Source: a virus. Taken from it: a stretch of 58,001 bases of DNA. Position 1 is the stretch's first letter, and the number at the start of each line of letters is the position of its first letter. Location: the IMG/VR virus record IMGVR_UViG_3300035698_014534, positions 1-58,001 of that record. One strand, written 5' to 3'. Position numbers and translations under genes: made by a program. The notes beneath the pieces were generated by a model. That model did not search any database. It worked only from the letters and a program-made list of their open reading frames with translations, and was not told the DNA's origin. Shown piece by piece: positions 8,132 to 9,441 of the stretch.

Positions 8132-8406
8132 AACGATTTCCTAATTCCTTTCAGAAGATAGTCAACTTCAAACTTAGATACTTTCAATAGATATTCTAGA
8201 TCGCTGGCCACTATTTCTCCAACCTTGCCAGACAAGAATCCCATATGGATTCCCAGTTGCCAATCTTGTCTCGGCTCTGGCAGCAGTTCCAAGAACAACT
8301 GTAGCCCCGCGCCCGTACCTATGCAAGAGGGACGATCCGTTTTTGAGACCCATTCCAATTTTGGCCAGTGTTGTTGGCATTTTTCAAGTAGCATCATTTT
8401 GCTCAT
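8128..8406 (-). CDS. 92-aa hypothetical protein
   Basis: The product starts MSKMMLLEKCQQHWPKLEWV. It contains GTGAGLQLFLELLPEPRQDW and ends with a leucine-rich helix and basic tail (LLKGIRKSL). Its start overlaps the end of the 8384-8566 gene, and its own end overlaps the next start. It belongs to the same tight minus-strand operon as the release factor. No family is recognised. Confidence 0.6.
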   Translation of the reverse strand: MSKMMLLEKCQQHWPKLEWVSKTDRPSCIGTGAGLQLFLELLPEPRQDWQLGIHMGFLSGKVGEIVASDLEYLLKVSKFEVDYLLKGIRKSL

Positions 8407-8566
8407 AGTATTGAACCAGTATACCCAATTTGTAAACTTTATCTACAATTGATATTACTTCATCTCTTGTAAATACCATGGTTTCTCTCGGTAGTCCGAG
8501 CGAGGTTATAATATCAACATAAATATCGTAGGAGTCCGTTCTGGACGTTGGGGTTATTTCCGACAT
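8384..8566 (-). CDS. 60-aa hypothetical protein
   Basis: The product starts MSEITPTSRTDSYDIYVDII and continues with TRDEVISIVDKVYKLG. It is an acidic small helical protein. ATG 8566 overlaps the last base of the release-factor stop (TAATG), and the 3' end overlaps the next gene by 23 bases. Operon membership supports it being real; function is unknown. Confidence 0.6.
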   Translation of the reverse strand: MSEITPTSRTDSYDIYVDIITSLGLPRETMVFTRDEVISIVDKVYKLGILVQYYEQNDAT

Positions 8567-9247
8567 TAAATAACATCCTCAATATGCCCCTTCATGTACT
8601 TCTTTGCACTCATTCTTTTCCCGTTTCGGTGATTGATAACACTATCGCGCTGGATAGCGATGGTTCTGACTTTGTCTCCCCTCATGCCAGATCCAATTTG
8701 CCCTTTTCTCTTGTTGTTCCTTTTGGAGATATCCTTCTCTTGTTGTAGCTCATCTAACTTCGAAGACAACAAAAGGAGAGCGAGTTCTTTATTTCGATGT
8801 TGGCTCCTTTCTGACTCAATTCTTACCTTTGTATTGGTAGGAAGGTGAGTCAGTTGAACCGCCGAATCAGTGGTGTTGCGGTGTTGCCCGCCAGGCCCCG
8901 ATCCCTTGCACGTCTTGACCTCTACATCACTCATGGGGATTTGGGTAGCCTTTTCTTCGTAGACGGGCAGCACGGCGACTGTGATGGTGCTTGTGTGGAT
9001 TCTGCCCTTGATCTCGGTCGGTGGGCAACGCTGGAACCTGTGTCCACCAGCTTCGCCCTTAAATAACTTCTGCACCTTCTTCCCAGATATCATCAACACT
9101 ATTAAAGAAGGAAGATGAGTTAATACCTCGATGTTAAAGGCAGTTCCTTAGTGCGAACTTTGTATAAATGTGCGCCTGATCCATGATTAATAGTTTGGCA
9201 TCCTTGCCGCCCTCTGCTGCTCTTATCTCTAGTATTACCTTTTCCAT
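8566..9247 (-). CDS. Class-I peptide chain release factor, RF1-type, split by a +1 frameshift
   Basis: ATG 9247 opens 37 codons (EIRAAEGGKDAKLLIMDQ) that match the start of RF domain 2, ending at CTT-TAA (9139-9134). Skipping one T continues as NIEVLTHLPSLIVLMISG to the stop at 8566, aligning without a gap to RF1. The fused product is 226 aa. It has the RF1-type codon-recognition tripeptide P-P-T (75-77, in QRCPPTEIKGRIHTS) and the catalytic GGQ (119-121, in GSGPGGQHRNTTDSA). Domain 1 is absent, as in short release factors such as PrfH. P-x-T predicts UAA/UAG reading. The upstream HTH gene overlaps by one base (TAATG). It would end translation or rescue ribosomes in phage-infected cells. Unshifted, the products are a 37-aa stub and, from GTG 9099, 177 aa. 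Confidence 0.8.
9133..9149 (-). other. Candidate +1 programmed frameshift site (CTT TAA C with upstream AAGGA)
   Basis: On the minus strand the order is AAGGA (9149-9145), ACTGC, CTT (9139-9137), TAA (9136-9134), C (9133). Bacterial prfB uses a Shine-Dalgarno-like element followed by CUU UGA C. The slip codon CUU-U and the following C match here; the stop is UAA and the spacing is five bases rather than three. A plain one-base indel is the alternative. Confidence 0.5.
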
Positions 9248-9441
9248 TATAAACCTTTCCTTTCTGCTATTAGCTTATTTAGTTCTTCAATTCTTTTAAC
9301 AACGAATTTCCTCATAACGTGAGAAGGAGTTGCACCATTTCTCCAACGTGTCACTGACGGAGTTGATACATCAACCCAACCTGACAATTCGTCATCTGCC
9401 AATTCACATTCTGTAATCAACTTGTGGAATTCTTCTTTCAT
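9247..9441 (-). CDS. Small XRE/HTH-like DNA-binding protein
   Basis: This 64-aa protein has the helix-turn-helix-like stretch LADDELSGWVDVSTPSVTRW followed by RNGATPSHVMRKFV and a charged C-terminal helix. The pattern 'L..wl.vs.psVtRWrnG..P' is typical of short Cro/XRE-type repressors. Its TAA overlaps the ATG of the release-factor gene, so the two are coupled. It may regulate this operon; the target is not visible. Confidence 0.6.
   Translation of the reverse strand: MKEEFHKLITECELADDELSGWVDVSTPSVTRWRNGATPSHVMRKFVVKRIEELNKLIAERKGL

Follow-up and report, generated by a model that had tools for sequence, protein, structure and literature searches.

Sequence comparison points to an RF1-type release factor family behind a stop-codon gate in phages and bacteria

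The window considered here, the whole 58,001-base stretch of IMG/VR virus record IMGVR_UViG_3300035698_014534, encodes on its minus strand (9247-8566) a release factor, an RF1 paralog without domain 1, that is obtained only via a +1 shift at CUU-UAA-C. That the shift at this site is programmed is close to certain, and comparison with relatives lends strong support to programmed +1 frameshifting in a gene of RF1 type. The gene probably represents an RF1-type family of large phages and some bacteria that is kept behind an obligatory stop, called the gate in the following, which is passed either by a CUU-stop +1 shift or by UGA readthrough; mechanisms and stops would interchange with the gate being kept, the factor would answer failing termination, and a UAG or UAA gate would be the RF1 counterpart of RF2 autoregulation.

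A release factor assembled from two frames

Skipping of one T joins the two frames of the gene into a fused protein of 226 residues. The original prediction of an RF1-type gene split by CTT-TAA-C and in need of a +1 shift is borne out by the PCRF profile of Pfam, which is matched by the 5' half at profile positions 100-132 (24 bits), by the 3' half at positions 153-194 (48 bits) and by the fusion at positions 101-194 (76 bits), the fusion equally matching the RF-1 domain. Among curated models, prfA fits the fused protein best (223 bits, cut-off 400), followed by prfB and PrfH, and the best sequence matches among solved structures are RF1. Residues 2-225 align with residues 86-316 of solved RF1s, so that domain 1 is absent as had been noted at the outset; the P-x-T recognition tripeptide, likewise anticipated, is present as P-P-T and is accompanied by the GGQ motif. 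An AlphaFold2 model built on a 19-row alignment reaches a mean predicted local distance difference test score of 89 and places the frameshift junction between a helix (residues 15-34) and a strand (residues 38-45). The best Foldseek matches of this model are ribosome-bound RF1 structures, with a template modeling score of 0.93 for Thermus thermophilus RF1 over the domain 2-3-4 fold. By analogy, the lack of domain 1 would fit a factor independent of RF3, an idea found in excerpts of the RFH literature (PMC1586002).

Recurrence of the shift site

Homologs were gathered by scans, of which the first already gave 17 viral loci with many sharing the +1 break of the window, and then by a three-frame profile search. 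This resulted in 279 distinct sequences, 204 of them from virus and phage collections, with identical genes merged, near-identical ones counted apart and L001, L018, L112, L130, L138 and L146-L165 left out; as each collection scan kept 80 loci, homolog counts refer to the matches listed and are not a census. A shift is required by 65 of the 204 virus and phage homologs, in all 65 a +1 shift, and CTT is the codon directly before the stop in 64 of them. The sites read CTT-TGA-C (31), CTT-TAG-C (13), CTT-TGA-G (12), CTT-TGA-A (4), CTT-TAA-C (3) and CTT-TAG-T (1), which amounts to 47 UGA, 14 UAG and 3 UAA gates, the latter comprising the window and two others; the 65th sequence, L126, shows AAC-TGA-A first, with the break proper at a later CTT-TAG-C. 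The base after the gate stop is C in 47 of the 65. The shift mostly falls after 33-39 codons, in a group low in guanine and cytosine (low-GC) with CTT-TAG-C after 52-54 codons and in two other cases after 46 and 49 codons. In close pairs of shifted genes the nonsynonymous substitution rate (dN) is far below the synonymous rate (dS) in both gene halves (5' part of L005 versus L029: dN 0.06, dS 0.43), and by this measure both halves are under purifying selection. The prediction had named homologues with an uninterrupted frame and no slip site as one finding that would refute it, and the opposite, a CTT-stop in nearly all shifted members, was found.

The slip codon is equally preceded by a recognizable context. 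Across 79 shift sites the consensus is CGGAGG-NNN-CTT, and pairing with the anti-Shine-Dalgarno sequence in the register of prfB averages 3.77 contiguous pairs as compared to 2.42 in 500 codon shuffles (maximum 2.77), with at least 4 pairs at 49 of the 79 sites. At the window site UAAGGA lies in the spacing-3 register with six contiguous pairs, the last two register positions (GG) being unmatched. The AAGGA originally described as lying at five bases instead of three is part of this element, which sits exactly in the prfB register.

Recognition tripeptides vary among the relatives, with PPN, PPG and PQN occurring at UGA shift gates and SPT and SPL being commoner at UAG and UAA. A tripeptide beginning with S is found at 5 of 16 UAG or UAA shift gates versus 2 of 54 UGA shift gates (Fisher p 0.006; rows with another first letter or an unreadable tripeptide excluded), a table from which no conclusion on a link between tripeptide and stop is drawn because the sequences are related by descent. 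L019, from a 485-kb phage (LR745208.1), is a gated homolog without the recognition tripeptide (QRTSNGRIHSS) that retains GGQ. The tripeptide variants together with L019 hint at a changed stop specificity. Among six huge-phage records examined in the phage collection, five are gated, LR745208.1 by shift and LR745206.1, LR756504.1, LR756502.1 and LR756501.1 by in-frame UGA, and LR756511.1 is ungated.

Stop codons in frame

In-frame stops occur in 128 of the 139 unshifted virus and phage homologs, nearly always as UGA and early in the gene; in 93 of these homologs a lone UGA follows codon 35, and others contain two, or one at a different place within the first 53 codons. One or two in-frame UGA at early tryptophan positions are seen in L085, L042, L094 and many other unshifted loci, and the ungated relative L006 has TGG where the gate UGA falls. 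In 81 genes the tryptophan codons from codon 60 onward are 140 TGG and no TGA, and before codon 60 they are 6 TGG and 45 TGA. Members with in-frame UGA therefore require readthrough instead of a shift, and on this pattern the in-frame UGA is the readthrough form of the gate of the shifted members. UAG readthrough may occur as well, since L031, L035 and L250 have in-frame UAG, alone or with UGA, and no shift.

The genetic code of three phages with an in-frame UGA gate has not simply changed, because 12 of 43, 25 of 51 and 10 of 35 long open reading frames (ORFs) in G001, G003 and G005, respectively, in total 47 of 129, end with UGA; genome-wide recoding of UGA was rejected for them. The low-GC phages G006 and G012 avoid terminal UGA (1 of 33 and 0 of 32 long ORFs), and either suppression or an altered code may apply to them. 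Close to the release factor gene, the flanks of L008, L010, L014, L015, L017, L036, L063, L071 and L125, nine low-GC loci gated by UGA-UGA or CUU-UAG, contain transfer RNAs (tRNAs) with the anticodon CUA, which by anticodon are suppressors of UAG. A tRNA with the anticodon UCA is located at 12527-12602 of L155, from the same phage as L008. In L147 and L153 the release factor gene lies within or beside large tRNA clusters, and in L153 the anticodon stem of the tRNA-Trp(CCA), as drawn, comprises only four pairs, a feature that a 2026 paper reportedly connects with the reading of UGA (PMC13092985).

Bacterial carriers and history of the gate

The CTT-stop shift site is also present in 15 bacterial loci. 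Isolates with a UGA shift gate are Minicystis rosea DSM 24000, Nannocystis pusilla DSM 53165 and Novimethylophilus kurashikiensis, and Pyxidicoccus fallax DSM 14698 has a UAG shift gate; in three further bacterial loci, including Jiella sp. LLJ827 and Gemmobacter caeni DSM 21823, in-frame UGA takes the place of the shift. All six bacterial genomes examined hold further genes with the RF-1 domain, five of them two of at least 356 residues and the sixth, Pyxidicoccus, open frames of 399 and 274 residues. Of 183 genomes in the order of Minicystis, 173 reach the cut-off, for the most part through matches within long frames of RF1 size, and the ten loci with the closest matches, second genes in which the match starts near residue 35, all read CTT-TGA at the break. 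One genome of this order, G196, shows two close matches about 3 kb apart and perhaps holds two copies of the gene.

A quick tree was derived from 148 rows, to which the 242 aligned ones had been reduced by identity cut-offs, with the columns of the gate region included and 57 of 145 inner branches open. L357, labelled as cellular RF1, falls inside the family on a long branch; this label does not provide an independent control, because it was assigned to single-frame genome hits without stops. Six ungated phage genes lie outside the gated ones and three other ungated genes among them. The states shift, readthrough and ungated change about 11-13 times in all, a number that is only rough because many branches are weak. 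L251, L322 and L358, with the shift after codon 46, fall in a clade whose remaining members carry in-frame stops around codons 44-47. The CUU-UAG sites that follow codons 52-54 group with in-frame-UGA members. The tree suggests that the gate itself has been retained and not a specific way past it, with shift and readthrough replacing each other.

The gene in its surroundings

Features of the gene and of its two neighbours are compiled in Table 1. Since the stop of the upstream 64-residue ORF overlaps the start of the release factor gene, the two may be translationally coupled. The window includes baseplate-like, endolysin-like and late-sigma-like genes, and from 13815 to 43356 a long series of ORFs that by eye resemble sugar-nucleotide epimerases, glycosyltransferases and related enzymes. 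A megablast search with positions 33002-58001 against the phage collection matched no near relative. Long ORFs of the window end with TGA (19), TAA (20) and TAG (7), an ordinary stop usage; a phage with recoded UGA or UAG, in which the recoded stop is absent as terminal stop, was thus rejected for the window.

Table 1. Elements of the release factor gene and adjoining reading frames in the window
Feature	Position	Strand	Remarks
Zero-frame 5' part	9134..9247	-	ATG at 9247, 37 sense codons, stop TAA 9136-9134 = gate; PCRF match 23.6 bits
Slip site CTT-TAA-C	9133..9139	-	CTT 9139-9137, C 9133; T at 9136 skipped in +1 shift; kept in homologs
+1-frame part	8566..9135	-	Rest of domain 2, domain 3 with GGQ, domain 4; ends with TAA 8568-8566
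Shine-Dalgarno-like UAAGGA	9145..9150	-	Internal; same anti-Shine-Dalgarno register to CTT as in prfB
P-P-T stop-codon recognition tripeptide (RF1-type P-x-T)	9016..9024	-	Residues 75-77
GGQ peptidyl-tRNA hydrolysis motif	8884..8892	-	Residues 119-121; invariant in alignment
Upstream 64-residue ORF	9247..9441	-	Weak match to transcriptional regulator, phrog_4779, E 0.00034; TAA overlaps release factor ATG (TAATG)
Downstream 60-residue ORF	8384..8566	-	ATG overlaps release factor TAA (TAATG); no family match

A gate that may sense termination

At the gate, the stop codon would wait in the ribosomal A site with the internal Shine-Dalgarno element pairing with the ribosome, tRNA-Leu would slip from CUU to UUU, and translation would go on in the +1 frame. 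Fast termination would release a 37-residue peptide, whereas slow termination would allow more shifting and thus production of the release factor. Because the factor would be made when termination is slow, the gate can be understood as a termination-capacity sensor by which an additional release factor is turned on. Factors with P-x-T read UAA and UAG. In the window, negative feedback by the product is expected, because both release factors of the host, RF1 and RF2, and presumably the product too read UAA; at UAA and UAG gates in general the product would lower its own synthesis, and at UGA gates feedback would require a product that reads UGA, or else control would be by RF2. A termination-capacity gate with product feedback for the UAA and UAG members is plausible. 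The entire explanation, a domain-1-less RF1-type factor made by shifting behind a gate that senses termination capacity, with feedback expected at UAA, is considered likely; for a termination sensor with product feedback taken by itself the balance tips only slightly in favour.

Several observations weigh against this interpretation. The gate stop is labile between UGA, UAG and UAA among near relatives, as in L013 (UGA) and L425 (UAG) with proteins 86% identical, and UGA, the stop in the majority of shift gates, should not be recognized by an RF1-type factor with P-x-T. The gate is missing from nine family members, a count that drops L012, L017, L324, low scorers and sequences with stops after codon 80; of the 11 stop-free sequences among the 204, two, L144 and L145, are by difference probably full-length RF2 genes. 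The Shine-Dalgarno register alone is no proof, because the register without spacer scores as high as that of prfB (mean 3.82 over the 79 sites) and spacing 3 is a best register at only 30 of them, and some shift sites, including L014, L015 and L124, have no obvious Shine-Dalgarno element. An obligate and conserved shift, purifying selection and RF1-like fold and motifs emerge from the comparison of sequences; shifting in the cell, its dependence on release factors and reading of UAA by the product are presumed. The mirror image of the RF2 circuit, as originally proposed for the window, holds only for the UAA gates and for the 14 UAG gates and is thus only partly supported, 47 of 65 gates being UGA. 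Feedback specific for RF1 is no general rule, because most shift gates are UGA and a large unshifted group has in-frame UGA, unless the factors read UGA.

The most serious competing explanation, held to be somewhat less probable than not, is a programmed gate without product feedback, which would sense host RF2, slowed termination or phage suppressor tRNAs and would time or trigger an extra factor when termination fails, for example late in infection or with translation under attack. The predominance of UGA, the codon of RF2, in shift gates and in most unshifted relatives is in line with this explanation, as are the variation of stop identity with persistence of the gate on the tree, the CUA tRNAs in the fetched flanks of the nine low-GC loci and the UCA tRNA in L155. 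Sensing of host RF2 is, however, impossible for the UAG gates, and product feedback is still possible at UAA gates including the window. If, on the other hand, the in-frame-UGA members merely used a code in which UGA means tryptophan, they would be uninformative on the gate. Location of the UGA at tryptophan positions, the rarity of terminal UGA in G006 and G012 and the UCA-anticodon tRNA of G006 agree with such a code; the frequent terminal UGA of G001, G003 and G005 and the confinement of TGA to tryptophan codons before codon 60 make it improbable.

Two further explanations concern the shift itself. Production of two polypeptides, with the +1 frame started internally and the parts assembling or the C-terminal part working alone, is conceivable in the window, where GTG at 9099 could open a 177-residue product. 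Among 74 shift genes, a +1-frame start near the gate with at least five contiguous anti-Shine-Dalgarno pairs at usual spacing is present in only 11, at scattered positions, and the mean best pairing run is 2.97 versus 4.89 at the true start; moreover, slip codon and context would have no reason for conservation, and this explanation is very improbable. Even less credible is a sequencing error or a decaying pseudogene. A misassembly could account for one additional T in a single contig, and two fetched records, L012 and L017, do have a further frame break, but 64 virus-derived and 15 bacterial sequences, obtained from numerous metagenomes and from cultured isolates, share the CUU-stop +1 break at almost the same codon, the remainder of the gene is open, and dN is far below dS on either side of the gate. 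For the family, site conservation and dN/dS led to rejection of error and pseudogene alike.

Relation to known recoded release factors

With prfB the family shares the CUU slip codon, the adjoining stop, the early site, a class-I release factor as product, the C after the stop and an internal Shine-Dalgarno element in the same register. It differs from prfB as its members are of RF1 type without domain 1, with the site in domain 2 at about codon 38 and UGA, UAG or UAA as stop; the site of Escherichia coli RF2 is at codon 26 (PMC5009743). In excerpts of a 2025 survey, 8,164 genomes with the prfB motif have TGA (98.6%) or TAA (1.4%) and none TAG, and a programmed shift in prfA was not found (PMC12421855). 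A 2016 review, likewise by its excerpts, describes readthrough of in-frame UGA in RF2 genes, a scheme once considered and never found in bacteria, and its UAG/RF1 counterpart as unknown, and points to a giant virus (PMC5009743).

Together with prfB, that giant-virus case is the nearest precedent. According to excerpts of PMC3521657, the class-I release factor of Mimivirus and Megavirus (R726, mg280) combines a CUU-UAG-C or CUU-UAA-C +1 shift with a readthrough stop, and for the Mimivirus gene the CUU-UAG-C +1 shift and the full-length product have been shown in E. coli. Here too a viral release factor gene has in-frame stops passed by +1 frameshifting and readthrough. The factor of these amoeba viruses is, however, of eukaryotic/archaeal type with both events in one gene, whereas the window family is of bacterial RF1 type, occurs in phages and bacteria and usually has one event, with L126 perhaps having both. 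Homology of the window protein to eRF1, the Mimivirus type, was considered and rejected, its matches being bacterial RF1. Because the window family is of the bacterial type, it is, as far as can be told, a case separate from and convergent with that of Mimivirus.

RFH/PrfH is equally a bacterial class-I factor without domain 1. The window factor reaches only 88.3 bits with the PrfH model (cut-off 166.65), and PrfH is paired with RtcB, a partner which the window factor lacks: RtcB was found neither in the window nor beside the release factor gene in any of the 17 records examined, three of which encode it elsewhere, and a PrfH-type partnership was rejected for want of an adjacent rtcB. Recoding of RFH is not mentioned in the excerpts of PMC1586002 and PMC6514570. 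RF1 (prfA) itself resembles the window factor in best sequence match, fold, P-x-T and GGQ, and differs by possessing domain 1 and lacking a gate; in bacteria the gated factor co-occurs with other, full-length factors. A limited literature search found no description of a gated RF1-type family, which is not proof of absence.

Significance

Autoregulation of a release factor by frameshifting has hitherto been treated as specific to RF2. The family of the window adds RF1-type genes with shift and readthrough gates in phages and cultured bacteria, with a parallel in Mimivirus. This raises the directly testable question of what selection on the gate has favoured, product feedback or a general sensing of termination. 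Equally, gene callers are suggested to split or drop gated genes, so that phage-encoded termination factors may be under-counted. The recurring stop gate suggests a built-in termination sensor not previously described for the RF1-type class.
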